Origin: Gammaproteobacteria bacterium
GTDB taxonomy: Bacteria > Pseudomonadota > Gammaproteobacteria > Chromatiales > Chromatiaceae
Length of the DNA: 64,000 nt
Assembly (NCBI GenBank): GCA_030148485.1
Contig: JASBTJ010000041.1
Location: forward strand, 1 to 64,000
Direction: 5' to 3'
The notes beneath the pieces are model-generated. The model did not search any database. It was not told where the DNA came from and saw nothing but the letters and a program-made list of their open reading frames with translations. The translations under genes and the position numbers were made by a program. Positions 4,177 through 38,594 of the stretch are shown piece by piece (position 1 is the first letter of the stretch; each line of letters begins with the position of its first letter).

Positions 4177-7100
4177 CTAGCGCTGCCGCAAGCGATCCAC
4201 CCGTTTGTACATCAGCCCGTAGTACACCACCGGAATGACAATCAACGTCAGTACGGTGGAGACCAACAAGCCGAAGATCAGCGACACCGCCAGTCCCGAG
4301 AAGATCGGATCGTCTAGAATGAAGAACGCCCCCGCCATGGCGGCCAATCCGGTCAGCACGATGGGCTGGGCCCGGACTGCGGCCGAGCGCACCACCGCCT
4401 CGGCAAAATCGCGGCCCTCCCGCAGCTCCTGATTGATGAAATCGACCAGCAGGATGGAGTTACGCACGATGATGCCCGCCAGCGCGATCATGCCGATCAT
4501 GGAGGTGGCGGTGAACTGCGCCCCCAGGATGGCATGCCCGGGCATGATGCCGATGATGGTCAGTGGGATCGGCGCCATGATGATCAAAGGGACCTTGTAG
4601 GAACCGAACTGGGCCACCACCAACAGGTAGATCAGGATCAGGCCGACGCCATAGGCGATACCCATGTCGCGGAAGGTCTAGTAGGTGACCTGCCACTCGC
4701 CGTCCCACTTGAGACTGTACTCATACGGGTTTTCCGGCTGGGAGAAATACCACTGCTCCGGGCCTTTACCTGCATCGTCCAGTGCCCCGGCCATCTCGAA
4801 CAGACCATACAAGGGGCTGTCCAGATGCCCCGCCATATCGGCGGTGACATACACCACGGGCAACAGGTCCTTGTGGTGGATGCTGTGCTCACGGCTCGCT
4901 TCGCGCACCTGGACCAACTCGGTCATCGGCACCATGGCGCCACTTGCGGAGCGGACCTTCAATGCCAGCACCTGATCCAGATTGGCGCGGTCCGCCTCGG
5001 ACAAACGCAGCCGGATCGGCACCGCGTACTTCATGTTCTCGCCATGCAGATAGCTGATGTCCTCGCCATTCACCAGGGTGGCGAGCGCCTGCACGATGCT
5101 CGACTGAGCGACCCCCAATCGGGCCGCCTTGGCGCGATCGACCACCAGGATGCGTTTCTCCGACGGGTATTCCACCGAGTCGTCGATGTCGACGATGTCC
5201 GGGGTCCGGGCGAACAATTCCCGCAGCGCCTTGGCCTGCGCGATCTGTCCGGTGTACTTGATGCCGTAGACCTCCGCCACCAGGGGTGACAACACCGGCG
5301 GGCCGGGCGGAACCTCCACCACCTTGGCATTGCCGCCGTACTTCAAGGCGATCTCCTGGATCGGCCCGCGCACCGACAGGGCGACCGCGTGGCTCTGGCG
5401 GTCCCGCTCATGCTTGTCCACCAGGTTGACCTGCACGTCCCCCACATTGGCCCCTTGGCGCAGATAGTACTGGCGCACCAGACCATTGAAGTTGATGGGC
5501 GCGGCCGTGCCCGCATAGACCTGGTAGTCGGTTACTTCCGGCACCGTGTCCAGGTACGCGCCGATCTCGCCCAACACCTGGGCGGTGTCCTCCAGGCTCA
5601 CCCCTTCGGGCATGTCCAGCACCACCTGGAATTCGGACTTGTTGTCGAAGGGCAACATCTTGAGCACCACCAGTTGGAAGTACGCCAACGAGATGGAGCC
5701 GGCTATCAGTAACATGATGCCCGCCAACAACAGCCAGCGGTTACGCCAGCCCCGCCGCCCCACAAGAAACGGCGCCATGACCTGGTTGAAAAAGCCATAC
5801 AGGCGTCCCGGCTGCTGCTCGCCCTGCGGGGCGTGCTCATGGGCGACGTTCGCCAACAGCCGGTTGGTCAGCCACGGCGTGAACATGAACGCCACCGCCA
5901 GCGAGATCAGCATGCCCATCGAGGCGTTGATGGGGATCGGGCTCATGTAAGGTCCCATCAGGCCGGAGACGAAGGCCATGGGCAGCAACGCCGCGATCAC
6001 TGTGAAGGTCGCCAGGATGGTCGGGCCACCGACCTCGTCGACGGCCTTGGGAATGGCTTCCAACAGATTCTTCGCCCCCATCGCCAGGTGACGATGGATG
6101 TTCTCCACCACCACGATGGCATCGTCCACCAGGATGCCGATGGAGAAGATCAAGGCAAACAGCGACACCCGGTTGATGGTGAAACCCCAGGCCCAGGACG
6201 CGAATAGCGTGATGGCCAGGGTCACCACCACCGCGGCACCGACGATCAGGGATTCCCGCCAGCCCAGCGCAAGCCACACCAACACCACCACCGACAGCGT
6301 GGCGAACACCAGTTTCGAGATCAGCTTCTTGGCCTTGGCATCGGCGGTCGCGCCGTAGTTGCGTGTGACGGCGGCTTGCACGTCGTCGGGGATGAAGGTC
6401 CCGCGTAGCGCGTCGAGGCGGTTGATCACCGCATCGGCGATCTCCACCGCGTTCTCACCGGGCTTCTTGGCAATGGCAATGGTGACCGCCGGGGCGACGC
6501 CGTCCGGGGCATGGGTCGCCCCCGGACCGGCACCGGTCCAGACGTAGGACGTGGGCACGTCGGGGCCTTCCTCTACCGTGGCAACGTCGCGCAGATAGAC
6601 CGGCTTGCCGCCGTGGCTGCCCACCACCAGATCCCGGACATCGGCGGCGCTGGACAGGAAGGTCCCGGCCTGCACCAGGATCTCGCGGTTGTCGCGGGTG
6701 ATGCTCATGCCGTCGAACACCGCATTGCCGGCCTGGAGCGCACGGCGCAGGTCGGCGATGTCGATCCCATAGCCCGCCAGGGCCTGCGGTTGCAACACCA
6801 CCCGCACGGCACGGGTCGGCGCACCGATGGTGTACACGTCCCGAGTGCCGGGCACCCGCTTGAGTTCGGCTTCGATGGCATGTGCCACCTGGCCCAGCTC
6901 GTAGGCGCCGGTACCGACGGATGCGTGCCACAACGTCAGCGACACGATGGGCACATCGTCGATGCCCTTGGTCTTGATCACCGGTTGGCCGACCCCAAGG
7001 CCCCGAGGCAGCCAGTCCTGATTCGAGTAGATCTTGTTGAACAACCGGACGATGGCATCCTCGCGGTTTTCACCCACCAGATACTGCACAGTGAGCACCG

Positions 7101-29518: not shown

Positions 29519-30139
29519 TCAGCCGGCGTTGCGATAGATGAAGATGTCCATGAAGTCGCCCTGCACGCGCACCTCGTCAACGGCGAGCGGCTTCATATAC
29601 ACGGCAGGGTCCGCCGCCAGCGGATGGGTCGGGTCGTCGACCCAGATCTTTTCCAGCATCGCCGGTGTCGGCTCGAAGAACACCACTGCGCCGCCGGGCT
29701 TGACCACCCGCAGGGCTTCGCGGCATACCGCGGCACGCTTGGCCTCGTCAATATGGTGCAGCACGCCGAAGAAGCACACCGCATCAAACGCCGCCTCGGC
29801 AAAGGACATATCGCTGGCATCGAAGGCCTGGAAGCGGATGCGCTCCCGGACGCCGGCGAGCCGGGCATTGTGTTCCCAGTCCTTACCGGCATAGGTCGAG
29901 GTGTCGGTGCTCGGCTCGCCGGTCAACACCTCGAAGCCCTGACTGGCCAGATAGATGGCGAAGTTGCCGTTGCCGGTTCCCACGTCCAGTACCTTGGCGG
30001 ACGCATCCAGACCGAGCACGTCCAGTGCGCGCCCGCCCTCGCTTGCGCAGATGCCGAACATGGGGCCGATGGCCCGACCGATTTCTTCGATGTTCATGCC
30101 AGCTTGTCCCGGCTGCTTGAAAGATGACTGGGTGGGCAT
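29519..30139 (-). CDS. SAM-dependent methyltransferase
   Basis: A class I methyltransferase of up to 206 residues. SAM-binding motif I is KVLDVGTGNGNFAIYLA; motif II/III regions include RFQAFDASDMSFAEAAFDAV and VLHHIDEAKRA; EALRVVKPGGAVVFFEP is also typical. The first ATG is at 30139. An ATG at 30097 (MNIEEIGRAIGPMFG) begins the family-like part, and neither has a strong ribosome site. The substrate is unknown. It faces the ABC module convergently and is followed by the TAXI operon on the same strand. Confidence 0.8.
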   Translation of the reverse strand: MPTQSSFKQPGQAGMNIEEIGRAIGPMFGICASEGGRALDVLGLDASAKVLDVGTGNGNFAIYLASQGFEVLTGEPSTDTSTYAGKDWEHNARLAGVRERIRFQAFDASDMSFAEAAFDAVCFFGVLHHIDEAKRAAVCREALRVVKPGGAVVFFEPTPAMLEKIWVDDPTHPLAADPAVYMKPLAVDEVRVQGDFMDIFIYRNAG

Positions 30140-30191: not shown

Positions 30192-31469
30192 TCAGCTGCC
30201 GCCCAGGCGCCCGCGGACCAGATCGATATGCTGGCGCAGATGATAAAGCTGATTGGCGAAGGACAACGGTACTTCCACCTGCACCACCTCCTGTTCCAAG
30301 GCGTCCAGATCGTCGCCCAGGGCCGCCCGGTCATGGCCGTCATACAACGCCAGGTCGATGCGTTCCAATTCCCGGTACCAACGGAAGATGCGCGAGCGCA
30401 TGCGCCAGCTGTAGATCGGCGGCATGATCTTGATCAGCGGCAGCAGCAGCACGATCAACGGCAGCAACATCACCTTCAAGCGATCCACCAGGGACGCCAG
30501 CCAGAACGGCAGATAACGCTGCAGCAACGGCGGGCCGAACTGGTAGTACCGCTCCGCCTCCTTGCTGAGCGGTAGTTCGGTATAGGCGGGTGAGGGAAAG
30601 GCGTCGACCGCCTCGAAGGTACCCCCCGGCCCATGGATGCGGGTCGCCGCGACCAGCAGCAGATCGGCAATGGCCGGATGCAATGCCGGCCCGGCCACCA
30701 GGGCGGCGGTGGGCGCCACCAGTTTCAGGTCCGATGGCGGCAGATTGGCGGCCAGGTCCAGGCTCCCTTCGGGCAGGCTCAGCTCGCTGAGAAAGCGGAA
30801 CCGCCGCGCATAGGCGGCGGCACGATCCAATCCGGCCAAGCGCACCCCCGGGGTGTTCACCAGCGCCTGGACCGCCGGAGCGGTGACGCCGCTCACCAAC
30901 AACACGGCGTCCACCTCGCCCGCGCGCAGCGCCGCGGCGGCGGCCTGCCCGCCCAGCGGCTGCAAGCTGATGTCCGACGTGCTGATGCCATTTGCCCCGA
31001 GTAACTGGGCGGCCAGCTGACGGGTGCCGGAACCCTGGGCACCGACGGCGACACGCAGTCCGCGCAGGTCGCCCAGGCGGCGTACCTCGCGCTCGGCGCG
31101 GTAAAACAGCCACAACGGTTCGAAGTACAGGCTGCCAAGCGCGTGCAAGCCCCCGACCTCGCCCGGCTTGACACTGCCGCCCTGCACGAACGCCACGTCG
31201 GCCTCGCCGGATCGCAACAGTGATAGATTCTCGGCAGACCCGGCGCTGGGGCGCAGTACCAGCTCGATACCCTGTTCCGCCAGGATCGACTGATAGCGTT
31301 TGCCGAAGGCGTGATAGGCCCCCTGCTCGCCCCCGGTCGCCAGCACCACCCGGTCCGGCGGCGCCGGCTTGATGAATTGGAAGGCGACGATGAATGCGAC
31401 CAACACCAGCACCAACACCGGGCCGTACACCCGGATGATCTCACGGCGTTCTCTGGGGTCTGAAGTCAT
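30192..31469 (-). CDS. Membrane-anchored TAXI-family solute-binding protein
   Basis: A 425-residue protein. TM helix at the N-terminus (YGPVLVLVLVAFIVAFQFI), then a TRAP-type TAXI solute-binding domain (LATGGEQGAYHAFGKRYQ, GSAENLSLLRSGEADVAFVQGG, VAVGAQGSGTRQLA), then a C-terminal TM helix (LKVMLLPLIVLLLPLIKI) and a cytosolic helical tail. No TRAP permease is adjacent. Three bases after the HAD gene, so the order is nucleotidyltransferase-HAD-TAXI in one operon. The ligand is unknown. Confidence 0.82.
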   Translation of the reverse strand: MTSDPRERREIIRVYGPVLVLVLVAFIVAFQFIKPAPPDRVVLATGGEQGAYHAFGKRYQSILAEQGIELVLRPSAGSAENLSLLRSGEADVAFVQGGSVKPGEVGGLHALGSLYFEPLWLFYRAEREVRRLGDLRGLRVAVGAQGSGTRQLAAQLLGANGISTSDISLQPLGGQAAAAALRAGEVDAVLLVSGVTAPAVQALVNTPGVRLAGLDRAAAYARRFRFLSELSLPEGSLDLAANLPPSDLKLVAPTAALVAGPALHPAIADLLLVAATRIHGPGGTFEAVDAFPSPAYTELPLSKEAERYYQFGPPLLQRYLPFWLASLVDRLKVMLLPLIVLLLPLIKIMPPIYSWRMRSRIFRWYRELERIDLALYDGHDRAALGDDLDALEQEVVQVEVPLSFANQLYHLRQHIDLVRGRLGGS

Positions 31470-31472
31470 GGC

Positions 31473-32174
31473 TCAAGCTTCCTTGTCGGGAGTCAACAGA
31501 TGATCAGCCAACACGGTCAAGGTGCGGCACGTCAGATCGGGCGGCGGCAGGTCGGACGGCCAGTCGCGCTGCCCTCGGTCGATCCAAGCGGTGTGCATGC
31601 CCACAGCCCGTGCCGCGGCGACGTCGCGCACCGGGTCGTCGCCAACGTGCAGGGTTTGCCCGGTGGGTACATCGGCCCAGGCGCAGGCCGCCAGGAACAA
31701 CTCGGGGTCGGGCTTGGCGGCGCCCACCTCACCGGCATTGAAACTGTGATCGAAACACCCGGCCAAGGGCGTGTGTTCCAGCTGCGCATTGCCGTTGGTC
31801 AACGACACCAGCCGATAGTGCCGGCGTAGCCGCGCCAGCGCAGCAGCCACATCGGGATAAGGCGTCACCCGGTTGCGCGCGGTGCGAAAGCACGCCGCGG
31901 CCTGATCCGCCAGTGCCGGCGGATGATCATGCTCGCGCATCAGTTGCCGAAGCTGCGCCAGGCGCAAGCGGGTGACGTCGTGCGCCAACGCCGGTTGTCG
32001 CTCGGCCAGCGCCAATCGATGGGCCCGCAGACTGTCGATATCGTGGCGTGCGGTGATCGCCGGCGCATGCTCGTCCAGCCAGTCGTACAGCGACTGCTCG
32101 GCGGCGCGGATCACCGGCATGCAGGGCCATAGGGTATCGTCCAGATCCAGGGTGATCAGCGCGATGCGCATCAT
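31473..32174 (-). CDS. HAD-superfamily hydrolase, YigB-like
   Basis: A 233-residue HAD phosphatase with all four motifs: LDLDDTLWP (I), SLTNGNAQ (II), GAAKPDPELF (III) and VGDDPVRDVAAAR (IV). It resembles FMN/5-nucleotidase-type YigB proteins. The substrate cannot be read from sequence. Its ATG overlaps the stop of the nucleotidyltransferase gene (ATGA at 32171-32174), so it is coupled to that enzyme and may process its product. Confidence 0.85.
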   Translation of the reverse strand: MMRIALITLDLDDTLWPCMPVIRAAEQSLYDWLDEHAPAITARHDIDSLRAHRLALAERQPALAHDVTRLRLAQLRQLMREHDHPPALADQAAACFRTARNRVTPYPDVAAALARLRRHYRLVSLTNGNAQLEHTPLAGCFDHSFNAGEVGAAKPDPELFLAACAWADVPTGQTLHVGDDPVRDVAAARAVGMHTAWIDRGQRDWPSDLPPPDLTCRTLTVLADHLLTPDKEA

Positions 32175-33274
32175 CGGGCCCAGCGCGCCGCGGCCTCCTT
32201 GGTCTTGAAGCCGCCACGGCGCCTCACCTGGGTCAACAGGTGGCGAACCAACATGCCGGGCGGCATGCGCAACCAGTGCGCCCGCAGGAACAGCAGTTGC
32301 ACCACCAGACTGCGGGTAACGCTCGGCCGCGCGGCTTGTTCCGGCAGCAAGGCGCTGCGCATCAGTGCCAGCATCAGGCGGCGCGCCGGCTCAGGCGGCG
32401 CGGCCTGGCGTACGACGGCCCAGAACGCGGCGGGGAGCGGGGTGTCGAGTATCCGACGGCAGTTGGCAATGCCGTAGTACAGGGGGCGCTCGACACCCAA
32501 CAGCCGCGCCCGTGCCAGCAACCGATCCCAGAATCCGACGGCGGAGGCAAACGCGCGCAACATGCCATCCAGGTCCAGCAGTTCCCGCAAGCCGTTGTCC
32601 AGCTCACCGTCATGAAACAGGTGCACGCACAGATGCAGCACCATGTCCGGGTCGCTCAGACGACGGTAGCCGGGCGGGCCGGCCAGCGGCTGAGCGTCCG
32701 CGAGCAACAGCGCCGCGTCGATCCTGACGCGGGAAACCGGGGGCGCAATGTTATGGTGCAGGTCCACCACCGTGCCACGTGCCGGGTGGATCAACGGCGG
32801 GACCTCGTGCATCCACTGCCGATAATAGCTCTCTTCATACGCATCCTGACTCAGGGACTGATACCCGGCTGCACGCATGGCCGCCTCCACCCGCGCCAAG
32901 TCCCGTTCCGCTACCAGCAGGTCCAGGTCCGACACCATGCGTCCCTGGGCGGTGGCCAAACCCGAGCACAGGTACGCGCCGCCCTTCAATACCACGATCG
33001 GCACATTCAGCCCGGCTACCACCGGCGCCAGCTGTGCCAACTCCCAACGCAGCTTGCGCGCGTGTTCCGCCGCGACGATGGTGGCACCTTCCAGGCGGTC
33101 ACGCAGGTCGCTTGGCAGCGGCTCGTCGGGCAGCCGGGCCGCGACAGCGGCCAACAGATTGGCGCGCTCGGCAAAGCGCACCACCCCTTCACGCTGCAAG
33201 GGGGTATAACGGAGAAACTGCGTGGGCTCGGCCAAGGCCCTGAGGAGCAGATCAGCCGACAAGCGCGGTGACAT
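32171..33274 (-). CDS. Nucleotidyltransferase-fold protein of the HprK-related/PqqD locus
   Basis: A 367-residue protein resembling the uncharacterised nucleotidyltransferase family NTP_transf_5. It has VLKGGAYL at about 95-102 and the metal-binding GRMVSDLDLLVAE (Asp116 and Asp118). The C-terminal half is helical and rich in Leu/Arg. Known members often sit beside HprK-like kinases and PqqD-like proteins, as here: the divergent operon 33514-35189 encodes those two plus a Tat-type substrate candidate. It may transfer a nucleotide or a sugar-phosphate to a protein; no enzyme of this family has a firmly assigned substrate to my knowledge. It is coupled to the HAD and TAXI genes. Confidence 0.72.
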   Translation of the reverse strand: MSPRLSADLLLRALAEPTQFLRYTPLQREGVVRFAERANLLAAVAARLPDEPLPSDLRDRLEGATIVAAEHARKLRWELAQLAPVVAGLNVPIVVLKGGAYLCSGLATAQGRMVSDLDLLVAERDLARVEAAMRAAGYQSLSQDAYEESYYRQWMHEVPPLIHPARGTVVDLHHNIAPPVSRVRIDAALLLADAQPLAGPPGYRRLSDPDMVLHLCVHLFHDGELDNGLRELLDLDGMLRAFASAVGFWDRLLARARLLGVERPLYYGIANCRRILDTPLPAAFWAVVRQAAPPEPARRLMLALMRSALLPEQAARPSVTRSLVVQLLFLRAHWLRMPPGMLVRHLLTQVRRRGGFKTKEAAARWAR

Positions 33275-33513
33275 AAGCCATCATTGTGCTTGCCCGGTCG
33301 GCGAGTTGGAAGTGCAACCGGTGTAACACAGACAGTGCCGGATTCTTTTACAGTGGGGTTCGACGCGGGCCACGGCGCGCCGCCACCGGCCTTCACTAAC
33401 AAGGGCTTGGCATCGGTGGAATGCTTTTTGCGTAATGGTTGCGCTACTGTCCATCGCCACCCCAACTCTGCGATACTCGAACGGAACGATCGGCTACCAA
33501 TGGAACGTACAGC

Positions 33514-33942
33514 ATGAAGAAGGGAAACAGCTCACCTGCCAATCGGGCACCGTCCGATATCGACGCCGCCGCGCGCCGACGCATTCTGAAGGGGCTGGCC
33601 AGCGTCCCCGCGATCGCCACCCTGGCCAGCGGCAGCGCCCGCGCCGCAACCAGCAATCTGCAATGCATTGGCGCCACGACCCCCACGGTCAACCCGAACA
33701 CTCCGAACGGATCGCCCACGTTCGACTGCAAGGATCCGAGCCAAACGCAGGAATACTTGAGTTCCGGCGTGTTCTACGATCCCAGCGAAGCGCTTCCGGC
33801 GGCACGCAAAACCAAGCCCAGCGGCCCCGGCAACGGCCAGGACTGCGTGATCTTCGTCGATGCCAACGGACAGAACGAAACCTTCGATGCCACGGTAGGC
33901 CAGACCGCCGTCACACCGTCCTGCTACACCTCATTCGTCTGA
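33514..33942 (+). CDS. Exported small protein, candidate substrate of the kinase locus
   Basis: A 142-residue protein with a Tat-like signal: ARRRILKGLASVPAIATLASGSARA (R21-R22-R23-I-L-K, cleavage near residue 44). The mature protein is about 98 residues with four cysteines (51, 72, 111, 137), polar and proline-rich, with no recognised domain. The six-base gap to the PqqD gene suggests co-expression with the PqqD-like chaperone and the HprK-related kinase. It may be the modified product of the system. The 239-base divergent region 33275-33513 precedes it and shows no convincing promoter match. Confidence 0.65.
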   Translation: MKKGNSSPANRAPSDIDAAARRRILKGLASVPAIATLASGSARAATSNLQCIGATTPTVNPNTPNGSPTFDCKDPSQTQEYLSSGVFYDPSEALPAARKTKPSGPGNGQDCVIFVDANGQNETFDATVGQTAVTPSCYTSFV

Positions 33943-33948
33943 CCCGGC

Positions 33949-34236
33949 ATGTATCCAGCCGCCCGCTGGAAGGCCAGCAACTATGGCGAACTGCTGATCG
34001 AGCAGTGGGACGAGGAAGTATTTCTGTTCAACCCGGCATCCGGGCACACCCACGTGCTCAACCCGGCGGCAGCGGCTTTGTTGGCGGAAATCGCCGAGCA
34101 CCCGACCGACGTCGGCACCTTGTGCCGCCGTTTTCAGGCCGATGACCCCGCACCCGATCCGGACGCCTTTGCCGACAGCATGGTGCACCATATCCAACAA
34201 CTGGCGTTGATCGGGCTGATCGAAGTCGCCGCATGA
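33949..34236 (+). CDS. PqqD-like protein of the HPr-rel-A system
   Basis: A 95-residue PqqD-like winged-helix protein: GELLIEQWDEEVFLFNPASGHTHVLNPAAAALLAEIAE, followed by a helical C-terminus (MVHHIQQLALIGLIEVA). PqqD-type domains bind precursor peptides. It fits the PqqD family protein, HPr-rel-A system type that occurs beside HprK-related kinase A, as here. Its stop overlaps the kinase ATG (ATGA), and it follows the exported protein by six bases. Confidence 0.78.
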   Translation: MYPAARWKASNYGELLIEQWDEEVFLFNPASGHTHVLNPAAAALLAEIAEHPTDVGTLCRRFQADDPAPDPDAFADSMVHHIQQLALIGLIEVAA

Positions 34237-35189
34237 CCACCCTGCAGGCGCTACCAGCGACGGAGCGATCGCGGCGTTTGAACACCGAAGGGCTGCGCCT
34301 TCGTACCGGGCCCTTCGTGCTGCGCCTGCATAGCGACCACGGCGCCATCGGCGATCAACTGGCAATGCTCTACGCGCTGGCGCCTGTGGTCGAAGCGGAT
34401 GCAGCGGACCTGACCACCTTCACCATCCATCTGCACCGGCCCCGGGGATTGCGCCGCTGGTGGCGACCACAGGTACGACTGCGCACCGATGCCGCCACAC
34501 CCTTTTCGCCTTTCCCCCTGGATCACGCCTTGCCTTTACTGGAATGGGGGTACAACTGGTGCATCTCCACCCAGGCGCACCACTTTCTGATGTTGCACGC
34601 GGCGGTAGTGGAAAAGGATGGGTGCGCGCTGATCATGCCGGCCCTGCCCGGTTCGGGGAAAAGCACCCTCTGCGCCGCGTTGATGCTACGCGGCTGGCGC
34701 CTGCTGACCGACGAATTCGGCTTGATCAGACCGAACGACCCGCAGCTCAGACTGTGGCCGCTGCCCCGACCGGTGGCACTCAAGAACGAGTCGATAAAGG
34801 TGATCCGGGATTTCAGCGCCGACGCGGTGCTCGGCCCGACCTTCCCCAAGACCCGCAAAGGCGATGTCGCGCACCTGATGCCCAGTACGCCCAGCCAGCG
34901 GGCCTGGGCCCAACCCGCCCCGGCACGCTGGGTATTGTTCCCGCGCTTTCGGGCCGGCAGCGACACCCGGCTGGAGCCGCTGGGGCGCGGCTGGGCCTTT
35001 CTGAAGCTGTCCGGCAACAGCTTCAACTACAAACTGCAGGGTGCCCGCGGCTTCCGCACCGTAGCGGAGCTGGTGAAACGCTGCCCCGCATATGCGCTCG
35101 ACTACAGCGACCTGGACCAGGCCATCGCCGCGATCGACGCCGTGCATGCTCAGCTGTCGGACGCCTGCCCCGGCAGCGATTTTGCCTAG
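34233..35189 (+). CDS. HprK-related kinase A
   Basis: A 318-residue kinase-like protein with the HprK serine kinase core: LHAAVVEKDGCALIMPALPGSGKSTLCAAL, where the Walker A is G140-T145, and LLTDEFGLI (D160, E161). It lacks the lactobacillus HprK two-domain layout and its PTS partner HPr is not nearby. It matches the HprK-related kinase A type (from memory; not verified). Likely phosphorylates or otherwise activates the candidate substrate at 33514 together with the PqqD-like protein. Stop is TAG. Confidence 0.8.
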   Translation: MTTLQALPATERSRRLNTEGLRLRTGPFVLRLHSDHGAIGDQLAMLYALAPVVEADAADLTTFTIHLHRPRGLRRWWRPQVRLRTDAATPFSPFPLDHALPLLEWGYNWCISTQAHHFLMLHAAVVEKDGCALIMPALPGSGKSTLCAALMLRGWRLLTDEFGLIRPNDPQLRLWPLPRPVALKNESIKVIRDFSADAVLGPTFPKTRKGDVAHLMPSTPSQRAWAQPAPARWVLFPRFRAGSDTRLEPLGRGWAFLKLSGNSFNYKLQGARGFRTVAELVKRCPAYALDYSDLDQAIAAIDAVHAQLSDACPGSDFA

Positions 35190-35247
35190 GGCGCAGCAGC
35201 GCCAGGCAGGCTACGCCAGCCCGTGCAAGCCATGGTGGTGACCGTCC

Positions 35248-36234
35248 CTACAGGGCCGGCAGCACGCGCCGGTCGATCAACGTGGCCAGATCGACCATCT
35301 CCGGATAGCGATCCGCCAATGCGACGATGTACCCCAGGGTGCGGGGAATATCCTTCAGATAGCTGGGCTTACCGTCCCGATGATTGAGACGGGCGAATAT
35401 CCCGGCGGCCTTCAGGTGGCGTTGCGCGCCCATCAAGTCGAACCAGCGCAAAAACCGGTCTTCATGCTCGTTGCGCAAGATCCCCGATGCCACCGCCGAC
35501 CGGAAATAGTCCATCGCCCAGGCATCCACCCGGGCCTGCGGCCAGGCGATGTAGCAATCCTTGAGCAGCGACACCAGGTCATAGGTGACCGGTCCGATCA
35601 CCGCATCCTGAAAGTCGATCACCCCGGGGGAACGCCCGTCGGGCGGCAACAACAGATTACGGGAATGATAATCGCGGTGCACCGGTACCTGCGGTTGCGC
35701 CAGGCCGTTGTCCCGCAGCCGGGCGAAGGTTGTCGCCAAGGCCGCTGCCTCGGCGTCGCTCAAGGTCAACGCCAGGTGGGCGCCCAACAGCCAGTCGCCG
35801 AACAGCGCCATCTCGCGCTCCAGCAATGTCGCGCCATAGCCCGGCAGCCCGGTCTGCGGACCACACGCCTGCAGCGATGCCAAGGCCGCCATGGCGTCGC
35901 CGTAAAGCCGGTCTGCGCTGGCCTCGTCCAGCACATCGAGATAATGGGTACCGCCCAGATCCTCCAGCAACAGAAAACCCCGGGGCAGGTCCTGGGCCAG
36001 TATGGCCGGCACGTGCAATCCGGCCTTCGCGAATTGCGCGGCGATCGATACGAAGGGGACGCAGTTCTCCTTGTCCGGCGGCGCGTCCATGGCGATGCGG
36101 GTCTGCCCGTCCGACGTCCGTACGCGAAAATAGCGCCGGAAGCTGGCATCGCCGGACGCCGGCGTGACGGTGAAGTCGGTTAGTCGACAGGCGTCACTGA
36201 GCCACTGCTCCAGGGCGGCACGGCGGTGCGGCAT
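35248..36234 (-). CDS. amgK: Cell-wall amino-sugar kinase AmgK
   Basis: A 328-residue APH-fold kinase. It has VPVHRDYHSRNLLL (Brenner motif), GVIDFQDAVIGPVTYDLVSLLKD and GFLLLEDLGG, which match AmgK, the N-acetylmuramate/N-acetylglucosamine kinase of the peptidoglycan recycling pathway. It is divergent from lptD, an arrangement common in gammaproteobacteria and pseudomonads. The usual partner murU (nucleotidyltransferase) does not follow; instead a convergent gene does. The start ATG at 36234 begins the conserved N-terminus; a longer in-frame reading would be out of character. Confidence 0.85.
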   Translation of the reverse strand: MPHRRAALEQWLSDACRLTDFTVTPASGDASFRRYFRVRTSDGQTRIAMDAPPDKENCVPFVSIAAQFAKAGLHVPAILAQDLPRGFLLLEDLGGTHYLDVLDEASADRLYGDAMAALASLQACGPQTGLPGYGATLLEREMALFGDWLLGAHLALTLSDAEAAALATTFARLRDNGLAQPQVPVHRDYHSRNLLLPPDGRSPGVIDFQDAVIGPVTYDLVSLLKDCYIAWPQARVDAWAMDYFRSAVASGILRNEHEDRFLRWFDLMGAQRHLKAAGIFARLNHRDGKPSYLKDIPRTLGYIVALADRYPEMVDLATLIDRRVLPAL

Positions 36235-36347: not shown

Positions 36348-38594
36348 ATGCCGCGCCGCCCGCGCGTCGGCGCGGAGGATCACTTGCCCACCAGCCTGCC
36401 CAGCCGGACTTCGGCCACCCTCGCCAGCGCGATTGCCCTGTGGCTGTGGGGTTCCAGCGCCGTCGCCGATACCGCGTGCCGCATCCCCGCACCGGATCTG
36501 CCCGGTTTGCCTGCGGGCGCCCCGGTACAGGTGGAAGCCGACGCAGCCACCTACCAGCCGGCCAGTGGCCGTACCGAATTCGAGGGCAATGCCGAGTTGA
36601 CCGAACCGGGCCGTCGCCTGAGCGCCGCGCGCATGACCTACCAGCGCGATGCGGATCAGTTGGACGCCGAAGGACACGTGGAATTGGCCCAGCCGGACCT
36701 GATCCTGCAAGGCGATACCGCGAGCTACCGGCCGACCGCGCGCACCGGCCAGGTGAGCAACGCCCGTTATGCCATGCCCGCCACCGGCGCCAACGGCGAA
36801 GCCAAGCGGGTGGAGCTGCTACCGGACGGCACGCTGCACCTGACCGATCCCGTCTATACCCTCTGCCCACCCGGCCAGCGCGCCTGGGCCATCGAGGCGG
36901 AGCGGATGATGCTGGACCGCGAAACGGGACGCGGCACCGCCACCGGAGCGCACCTGGAACTGGGTGGCGTGAGCCTGCCGGGACTGCCGACCCTGAGCTT
37001 CCCCATCGGTGAACGGCGCCATTCGGGCCTGCTGGTGCCGAGCATCGGCTATGGCAGCGCCAACGGCGCCGATGTCACCATCCCGTATTACTTCAACCTG
37101 GCGCCCAACTACGACCTAACCGTGGCGCCCCGGCTGATGAGCCGCCGCGGTATCCTGCTGGGCGGCGAATTGCGTTACCTGCAGCCGGACTTCAACGGCC
37201 AACTGAGGCTCGAGTACCTGCCCGACGACCGCATTCACAGTGGCAACAGCCAGCGCGGCGGCATCACCTGGCGGCACGACGGTCGTCCCTTCGGTGGCTG
37301 GCGTAGCTACGTCAATGCCAGTCATGTGTCCGATGTCGACTACCTCGCCGATCTGGACAACACCCTGTCTGCATCAGCCACCCGCAACCTGGAGCGGATC
37401 GCCCAGCTGAGCCGCCGCACCCGCAACAGCACCGTTATCCTGCGGGCGCAGGATTTCCAGAATCTCGACCCCGCCCTGCCCGCGGACCAGCGCAGCTACG
37501 GCCGCCTACCACAGCTGCTGGCGAGCCTGGATCAGCCCTTCGGTGACCACACCAGGTTGTTGCTGGACACGGAGTTCGTCTCCTTCGACCGCAGCACCGG
37601 GGTGACCGGTCAACGGGTCGACCTGTCACCCACCCTGGCGGCGCGCTGGGAGCAGCCGTGGGGCTATGTAGAGCCCCGTGCCGGCGTGCGCTACACCGGC
37701 TACCGTCTCAGCGGCAACGGCGCCGGGGGGGATTCGCCGGATCGCTTCACCCAGCAGTACAGCCTGGACGGCGGGCTGTTCTTTGATCGCCCGGTCGACA
37801 TCGCCGGGCGCGCCATGACCCAGACCATCGAGCCGCGCCTGTACTACCTGTACGTCCCGTACAGTGATCAGTCGAACCTGCCGGTGTTCGACACCGCCGA
37901 ATATGACTTCCGCTTCGACAGCCTGTTTCAGAACGACCGTTTCAGCGGCCCGGATCGGGTCGGCGACAGCCAACGACTGAGCGTCGCGCTGACCAGCCGT
38001 CTGATCGATGATCGTACCGGCATGGAACGGGTGCGGGTCGGAATCGGTCAGATCTTCTACTTTGACGACCGCCGGGTCACGCTCCCCAACCAGCCCGCAC
38101 CGGATACCAGCCAGTCCGCCATGGTGGTTGGCATCGGGCTACGCCTGGATCCGCGCTGGCGTCTTGATGGCAGTGCCCAATGGGACCCGGAATACGGTCA
38201 GGACGGTGCCGTCACCCGGGGTTTTGCCCGGATTGGCTGGGACAAGGGGGACGGATCCCGCTTCTCCGCCGGCTACCGGCTACGCCGCGGCGAGACCGAG
38301 CAACTGGATCTGGCCGGTGGCTGGCGCGTGAACGCCCGCACCCGCCTGGTTGGTCGCTGGCGCTACTCGCTGCGGCGCAACCAGAACCTGGAGGCCCTGG
38401 CCGGTATCGAGTACGGCGGCAGTTGCTGCTGGAAGGTGCGTACCCTGCTGCAACGCCACCTGGACACGGTGTCCGACAAATCGAATCTGGCCGTGCTGCT
38501 GCAATTGGAGCTGACCGGCCTGGGCAACCTGGGCAAGAACATCGACGATCTGATGAGCGGCGGCCTGGCCGGCTATCGCGCCACCCCGCCGTAA
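36348..38594 (+). CDS. lptD: LPS assembly protein LptD
   Basis: A 748-residue outer-membrane beta-barrel that inserts lipopolysaccharide with LptE. It has a signal peptide, an LptA-like jellyroll domain (VQVEADAATYQPASGRTEF; AEGHVELAQPDL) and a 26-strand barrel (ERRHSGLLVPSIGYGSANGADVTIPYYFN; EPRLYYLYVPYSDQSNLPVFDTAEYDF), with the paired-cysteine end AGIEYGGSCCWKV. A TTG at 36384 with GGAGGA just upstream is a plausible alternative start; it would remove only 12 residues and leave a better signal peptide. First gene of lptD-surA-pdxA. Confidence 0.94.
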   Translation: MPRRPRVGAEDHLPTSLPSRTSATLASAIALWLWGSSAVADTACRIPAPDLPGLPAGAPVQVEADAATYQPASGRTEFEGNAELTEPGRRLSAARMTYQRDADQLDAEGHVELAQPDLILQGDTASYRPTARTGQVSNARYAMPATGANGEAKRVELLPDGTLHLTDPVYTLCPPGQRAWAIEAERMMLDRETGRGTATGAHLELGGVSLPGLPTLSFPIGERRHSGLLVPSIGYGSANGADVTIPYYFNLAPNYDLTVAPRLMSRRGILLGGELRYLQPDFNGQLRLEYLPDDRIHSGNSQRGGITWRHDGRPFGGWRSYVNASHVSDVDYLADLDNTLSASATRNLERIAQLSRRTRNSTVILRAQDFQNLDPALPADQRSYGRLPQLLASLDQPFGDHTRLLLDTEFVSFDRSTGVTGQRVDLSPTLAARWEQPWGYVEPRAGVRYTGYRLSGNGAGGDSPDRFTQQYSLDGGLFFDRPVDIAGRAMTQTIEPRLYYLYVPYSDQSNLPVFDTAEYDFRFDSLFQNDRFSGPDRVGDSQRLSVALTSRLIDDRTGMERVRVGIGQIFYFDDRRVTLPNQPAPDTSQSAMVVGIGLRLDPRWRLDGSAQWDPEYGQDGAVTRGFARIGWDKGDGSRFSAGYRLRRGETEQLDLAGGWRVNARTRLVGRWRYSLRRNQNLEALAGIEYGGSCCWKVRTLLQRHLDTVSDKSNLAVLLQLELTGLGNLGKNIDDLMSGGLAGYRATPP

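Follow-up and report, generated by a model that had tools for sequence, protein, structure and literature searches.

Lasso peptide tailoring is the closest described chemistry: the kinases PadeK and ThcoK phosphorylate a C-terminal serine, and PsmN adds a hexose to the phosphoserine (PMC9266682; PMC8498205). Reviews left undecided if PsmN acts as a true nucleotidyltransferase or as a glycosyltransferase (PMC9266682). In NCBIfam, an HprK-related kinase and a PqqD-like protein are named together as the HPr-rel-A system (TIGR04352 and TIGR04353), and these names give no substrate; a candidate substrate family, its two classes and their motifs are described here. In the literature collection that we searched, no paper named HPr-rel-A, HprK-related kinases or the two model accessions, and the words kinase, HPr, nucleotidyltransferase and Tat were absent from two RRE surveys.

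The window, the whole analysed stretch of 64,000 nucleotides from a gammaproteobacterium of the Chromatiaceae, contains a member of the HPr-rel-A system. The kinase and the PqqD-like protein both scored above the curated cut-offs, and their genes are adjacent with a 4-base overlap (Table 1). The recurrent partner of the system, an NTP_transf_5 protein (NTP), is also present. The spacing between the genes for the small exported protein (EXP) and the PqqD-like protein is 6 bases, and the NTP and HAD genes overlap by 4 bases. All six genes proved to be open over the listed positions, so that the two divergent operons, the gap between them and the gene set described in the initial annotation were borne out. 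No sigma-70-like promoter was found in positions 33200 to 35400, although the sigma-70 pattern says little for this organism.

Table 1. Features of the cassette region in the window.
Feature	Positions	Strand	Description
EXP	33514..33942	+	142 aa; class B Tat-signal protein, candidate substrate
PqqD-like HPr-rel-A peptide chaperone (RRE-like)	33949..34236	+	95 aa; TIGR04353, 54.8 bits (cut-off 35)
HprK-related kinase A	34233..35189	+	318 aa; TIGR04352, 376 bits (cut-off 200)
NTP_transf_5 nucleotidyltransferase-fold protein (NTP)	32171..33274	-	367 aa; PF14907, 182.9 bits
HAD	31473..32174	-	PF00702, 77 bits
TAXI	30192..31469	-	TIGR02122, 106.8 bits (cut-off 84.35)
Divergent intergenic region, NTP/EXP	33275..33513		239 bases

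We compared 134 loci collected with the kinase as bait, in which open reading frames with homology support were retained. The PqqD gene was found in 129 and NTP in 131 of these kinase-baited loci, and EXP in at least 124 (116 on the kinase strand in a scan, plus 8 clear cases beyond the scan, several of them on the opposite strand). The NTP gene diverges from EXP in the window; most loci have it downstream of the kinase instead. A model of the EXP signal family gave 126 matches of at least 15 bits within 3 kb of a kinase and none elsewhere in 0.81 Mb, and no second EXP copy was found in the window's own genome. A 75-residue twin-arginine protein in the kinase-free genome G772 was considered as an orphan substrate and rejected, as the motif was absent. 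Since the set of EXP, PqqD, kinase and NTP was seen in more than 100 loci, distributed across proteobacteria, its arrangement in the window is beyond chance. The initial annotation had proposed looking for co-occurrence of the genes in other genomes, and such co-occurrence was found for these four, which are members of one four-gene cassette.

The kinase carries the intact Walker A motif (PGSGKST) that had been annotated, and its residues H122, K143 (in Walker A), D160 and E161 showed complete or near-complete conservation among the members examined. The family profile aligned with HPr kinase/phosphorylase (HprK, PDB 1jb1; E 0.0044) over the core HAAV...PGSGKST...LLTDE. The window kinase itself matched no Pfam family and, as a single sequence, no solved structure. 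In NTP, G98, D116, D118 and D171 were similarly constant across all, or almost all, of the members examined, and neither the single sequence nor the profile matched a solved structure. The PqqD-like protein scored just under the cut-off of the Pfam PqqD family (22.6 versus 23.4). The solved structures nearest to its family profile were the lasso leader-binding proteins TbiB1 (1.6e-4) and TfuB1 (8.5e-4).

EXP had no match in Pfam, and none above the cut-off in NCBIfam. Its sequence comprises an n-region, RRR at positions 21 to 23, a hydrophobic stretch and a cleavage-like site of the AxA type (SARA|ATS), with S47 and C51 shortly after it. The four cysteines of the initial annotation were located at positions 51, 72, 111 and 137, and the C-terminal motif VTPSCYTSFV contains S140. 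TatC is encoded in the genome, and EXP has the features of a Tat substrate, for which export is predicted. The AF2 model of EXP was mostly of low confidence (pLDDT 56.5) and was not interpreted; it thus gives no structural backing for binding.

EXP-type proteins split into two classes, A and B, in both of which the twin arginine is nearly invariant. The window EXP belongs to class B, whose C-terminal motif is [ILV]T-x-[ST]-C-[LWYM]-x-S-[FILV], with a serine three residues after the cysteine in all 39 true C-anchored motifs. The nearly invariant residues of class B are R21, R22, P32, T36, L37, S47, C51, C137 and S140 in the window numbering, and its minimal members (loci L038 and L072) consist of the signal and only about 12 to 20 residues bearing the motif. 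Class A proteins are without this C-terminal motif and have the sequence CTxSGxxSGNxS after the signal. Their invariant residues are R29 and S61, the single invariant serine, which lies near the mature N-terminus; a serine site common to both classes is thus unsupported by the motifs. In held-out loci the motifs were obeyed by 19 proteins of class B, Sphingomonas included, and by 2 of class A, out of 25.

Substrate class was co-inherited with the kinase and NTP lineages. Class changes numbered 2 on the kinase tree, versus 40.8 expected when shuffled, and 1 on the NTP tree, with the caveat that the kinase was the bait and that transfer of the cassette as a unit would likewise yield matching trees. 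A divergent NTP gene was found in 9 class B loci and in no class A locus. The initial annotation had taken EXP as the substrate, and the tracking of the kinase tree by substrate class supports this idea together with the serine motifs.

Considering that EXP is a cassette member with an invariant serine, it is very probably modified by the cassette enzymes. We propose, with a probability of roughly 0.6, that the HPr-rel-A cassette is a protein-modifying system with EXP as its dedicated substrate, operating in four steps. The PqqD-like protein would bind the precursor through its N-terminal leader or signal region; the profile similarity to TbiB1 and TfuB1 makes it a likely presenter, as initially annotated. 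The kinase would then phosphorylate a conserved serine, with S140 in TxSCxxSF as the likeliest residue and S47 as the second candidate. Serine phosphorylation is the probable modification, and S140 itself has slightly less than an even chance of being the site. NTP would transfer a nucleotidyl or sugar group, which by analogy with PsmN of pseudomycoidin we place tentatively on the phosphate. That the kinase and NTP modify the substrate had also been annotated, and comparison of the loci and the predicted intact active sites of both enzymes argue for it. Finally, the modified protein would be exported by Tat and its signal removed, and the conserved cysteines may form disulfides outside the cytoplasm. 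The widespread kinase/PqqD pair, so far a database name only, would thereby acquire a defined family of substrates, a serine predicted as the target and a reaction open to direct testing. A fuller version is doubtful: guided by the RRE, the enzymes would add a serine phosphodiester (phospho-sugar or nucleotide) in the cytoplasm before Tat export, as lasso-type chemistry on whole secreted proteins of two unrelated classes with a cell-surface role, often with exopolysaccharide (XrtA) loci.

The modified residue could instead be the serine after the cleavage site (S47, or the CTxSGxxSGNxS cluster in class A), with the C-terminal motif as a docking or disulfide element. In 66 of 68 class B proteins, the 7 residues that precede the first mature cysteine include a serine, and S61 of class A occupies the equivalent region, so such a site could serve both classes. 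However, the C-terminal serine of class B persists where the neighbouring cysteine is replaced, and the C-terminus is where the HprK-like peptide kinases characterised so far act (PMC9266682), which makes a post-cleavage site somewhat unlikely. We also consider it unlikely that NTP acts directly on the protein (for example by AMPylation) or on a small-molecule donor, with the kinase making or regulating the donor and the nucleotide or sugar on EXP not phosphate-linked. The complete catalytic set of NTP and the undecided activity of PsmN (PMC9266682) would suit such a reaction, but the PsmK/PsmN precedent requires the phosphate first (PMC9266682; PMC8498205), and the kinase and NTP nearly always co-occur.

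EXP might also be unmodified and travel with the cassette as a chaperone client or as a secreted protein under shared regulation, while the kinase, PqqD and NTP make another product. The C-terminal part of the class A domain had a confidently predicted fold (pLDDT 78) with no match in the PDB, and the domain was also found without a Tat signal in large open reading frames of other genomes, so a function of its own is possible. However, the neighbourhood comparison of the loci revealed no other conserved small open reading frame adjoining the cassette, and EXP does not occur anywhere else in these genomes. Furthermore, the shared parts of class B (a leader, one serine/cysteine pair and the C-terminal motif) form the pattern of a substrate. 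An unmodified EXP is therefore improbable.

The initial annotation had also included HAD and TAXI, and these claims were not upheld. Both lie beside the cassette in only 5 to 6 of the 134 loci, confined to the window and a single related genus, and relatives, some of which lack the cassette, have homologues of both at unlinked positions; we ruled HAD and TAXI out as members on these grounds. A wider system, with HAD as a phosphatase that undoes or trims the modification and TAXI as a sensor or importer of a ligand, is most improbable despite the NTP/HAD overlap and the NTP-HAD-TAXI order in L198 to L201, given this rarity, the resemblance of HAD to YigB (the nearest NCBIfam model, 118 bits versus a cut-off of 225) and the dissimilarity of the HAD adjoining a Sphingomonas cassette (E 0.74). 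The methyltransferase at 29519 to 30139, AmgK and LptD were rejected as members, showing at most local synteny within the order.

Several known systems share parts with the cassette. SynChlorMet likewise has an HprK-related and PqqD-related pair (ScmC kinase and ScmD), but the window proteins scored far under the cut-offs for these models (29.3 and 18.5 bits versus 125 and 100), and nothing similar to the SynChlorMet partner genes was seen at the window cassette. The P-loop core of HprK is homologous to that of the kinase, but no ptsH-like (HPr) gene was recognised beside the cassette.

Lasso tailoring (paeninodin PadeK, ThcoK and pseudomycoidin PsmK/PsmN) shares the HprK-like kinase, the nucleotidyltransferase-fold protein and the B1-like RRE, as well as one genetically linked precursor with a serine near the C-terminus. 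However, lasso clusters have a B2 protease and a C cyclase. No Asn-synthase-like macrolactam cyclase (C protein) was found in the surroundings of the window cassette, no B2 leader protease lay beside it, and no recurrent neighbour was recognised as B2; the initial remark that both are lacking is right for the window and for most of the loci. Near 16 other loci there is an Asn-synthase-like protein, which, judged by a representative, is the XrtA amidotransferase TIGR03108. A separate lasso-like cluster, with a kinase related to the window kinase, occurs in the same genome. The lasso kinase motif is His-Lys-Asp-Asp, as opposed to H-K-D-E in the window kinase family, and lasso kinases modify a terminal serine, whereas S140 is followed by Phe-Val. 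Lasso products are threaded peptides exported by ABC transporters, whereas the candidate substrate of the cassette carries a Tat signal and has a mature part of up to about 200 residues. If the proposed reading is true, the cassette would parallel the phosphoglycosylated lasso peptides at the scale of whole proteins and in conjunction with Tat export, and RRE-guided modification would extend beyond small natural products.

The six genes that the initial annotation had placed at this locus are real and lie where it put them. The gene for the small Tat-signal protein beside the kinase (EXP) is followed on the plus strand by the PqqD-like gene after 6 bases, and the kinase gene overlaps pqqD by 4 bases. 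The window EXP belongs to no Pfam family, nor to any NCBIfam family above its cut-off. Within the same order, the cassette is flanked by an AmgK-like kinase gene at 20 loci and by an LptD gene at 14; these flanks are a conserved chromosomal site where the cassette inserted.

Genes of the cassette and its surroundings in the window
Feature	Position	Strand	Description
EXP	33514-33942	+	142 aa; long n-region, RRR at 21-23, hydrophobic stretch, SARA|ATS cleavage-like site
PqqD-like protein	33949-34236	+	TIGR04353, 54.8 bits (cut-off 35)
HprK-related kinase A	34233-35189	+	TIGR04352, 376 bits (cut-off 200)
NTP_transf_5 protein (NTP)		-	PF14907, 182.9 bits; across 239 bases from EXP
YigB-like HAD protein		-	same side as NTP
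TAXI-type binding protein		-	same side as NTP and HAD
AmgK-like kinase	35248-36234
LptD	36348-38594

The kinase served as bait in 274 genomes from the same class, 398 from the same phylum and 210 from the same order, and in a species-level genome collection. The 134 loci read closely represent about 130 distinct ones, a few genomes having entered twice (L160 is the same contig as L033). PqqD was present in 129/134 and NTP_transf_5 in 131/134 loci, and a small Tat-signal protein was encoded on the kinase strand in 116/134, nearly always immediately 5' of pqqD. The kinase-strand scan overlooked 8 further EXP genes, several through their opposite-strand position. A model of the EXP signal region (at least 15 bits) gave 126 matches within 3 kb of the kinase and none in the other 0.81 Mb. 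The commonest order was EXP-PqqD-kinase-NTP (98 loci, and 4 more with two EXP genes), and the divergent NTP of the window was a minority layout, observed in 9 loci with class B EXP and none with class A. No second EXP was found in the window's own genome. Kinase residues H122, K143, D160 and E161 and NTP residues G98, D116, D118 and D171 were conserved in all aligned members. The proposal that the small exported protein is the substrate of the cassette is well supported by genomics. A related but distinct cassette, ordered NTP-PqqD-kinase, occurred in L082, L083 and L084; its kinases score under the HprK_rel_A cut-off, and in L083 the opposite strand carries a possible RR-signal ORF.

A wider system that includes the HAD and TAXI proteins, which had also been proposed as members, is not supported. 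Among the 134 loci, both lay beside the cassette only in the window and one related genus (L197-L201; L169 has a HAD fragment). In relatives they were unlinked: they are on two contigs in genome G686, and the TAXI gene of G743 is about 2 Mb away from the cassette. In some genomes with unlinked HAD/TAXI, the kinase search gave no match. The HAD beside a Sphingomonas cassette showed no similarity to the window HAD. HAD and TAXI are best read as local neighbours.

EXP proteins fell into two classes with nothing but the signal in common. The window EXP is one of about 68 class B proteins, which have conserved ends and a hypervariable middle; R21, R22, P32, T36, L37, S47, C51, C137 and S140 (window numbering) were at least 90% conserved. 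The class B tail follows the pattern [ILV]-T-x-[ST]-C-[LWYM]-x-S-[FILV]. With the motif anchored on Cys alone, Ser not being required, Ser occupied Cys+3 in 39/39 true tail motifs, the 4 exceptions being anchored on a different Cys. One subgroup replaces the tail Cys with Ala or Ser and keeps the final Ser, and the smallest members (L038, L072) are made up of the signal and about 12-20 further residues, in which the motif persists. The AlphaFold2 model of the window EXP was mostly of low confidence (pLDDT 56.5). In L033 (140-674), a class B tail (ELAGTCLCSISPN) continues in frame into pqqD, possibly a substrate-PqqD fusion or a frameshift at the contig end.

Class A, of which about 50 proteins were read full-length, carries C[TS]xSGxxSGNxS directly behind the signal, followed by GxSPGYWK and HxVAALLNA motifs; R29 and S61 (L046 numbering) are its invariant columns. 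The C-terminal part was predicted confidently by AlphaFold2 (mean pLDDT 78; class A proteins including L046 7025-7681), and this domain (GxSPGYWK ... HxVAALLNA) matched neither a PDB fold nor a Pfam model. When the class A model was searched across the order, signal-bearing matches came from kinase-bearing genomes, the single exception being a 75-aa motif-less protein, and 3 more kinase-free genomes matched through the domain alone. Kinase-free genomes also encode the domain in large ORFs that lack a Tat signal.

Among 25 held-out loci outside motif derivation, of which L229 and L110 proved repeats of L222 and L038, 19 had the class B tail with Ser (YTCFLSV in Sphingomonas parapaucimobilis) and 2 the class A motif (SCMSGNAS in Vibrio alfacsensis); the others were contig ends or loci where EXP was not found. 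Both publicly annotated held-out records, those of S. parapaucimobilis and V. alfacsensis, call the EXP gene a 'hypothetical protein'. On the kinase tree (123 rows), EXP class required 2 changes, against a mean of 40.8 after shuffling, and 0/500 shuffles gave so few; the NTP tree required 1. The window's taxonomic family contains both classes, and kinases cluster by class, not taxonomy. This agreement fits enzyme-substrate pairing, although the same pattern would arise if the cassette travelled as a single unit.

XrtA/PEP-CTERM exopolysaccharide genes were close to 51/134 cassettes (class A, 16/52 loci; class B, 31/64), pointing to a possible function at the surface or in the matrix of many hosts; none were beside the window cassette. 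Such neighbours (e.g., in L041, L165, L193, L204 and L209) include PrsK, PrsR, PrsT, TIGR03087 and TIGR03013 glycosyltransferases and a TIGR03108 amidotransferase. In 17 loci (e.g., L046 5989-6768) the cassette adjoins a gene for a trypsin-like serine protease of about 259 aa. No description of the HPr-rel-A cassette system was found in the literature searched.

The closest worked-out chemistry is lasso peptide phosphorylation and phosphoglycosylation. HprK-like kinases of the PadeK/ThcoK type place a phosphate on the C-terminal Ser of the linear lasso precursor. For pseudomycoidin, a nucleotidyltransferase, PsmN, acts after the kinase PsmK and adds one or two hexoses to the phosphate; PsmN may be a true nucleotidyltransferase or may instead be a glycosyltransferase (PMC9266682; PMC8498205). 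The window's own genome has a separate lasso-like RiPP cluster on contig 17 (L241 2184-8615), comprising an ABC transporter, an Asn-synthase-like protein, a precursor-like ORF of 51 aa (5813-5968), a secreted 189-aa protein, a lasso-type PqqD-like protein and an HprK-like kinase that hhalign relates to the HPr-rel-A family (E 1.9e-6). Among solved structures, the cassette PqqD is closest to TbiB1 and TfuB1, both lasso proteins. Because the cassette holds three lasso-type kinds of protein, we infer a chemistry, step order and modified site in which the kinase, guided by the RRE, would phosphorylate a conserved Ser of EXP, a nucleotidyl or glycosyl group would be transferred onto the phosphate, and EXP would be exported by Tat. 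The cassette resembles lasso systems in its RRE-like PqqD, HprK-like kinase and nucleotidyltransferase-fold protein, but differs from them in having neither a cyclase nor a leader protease.
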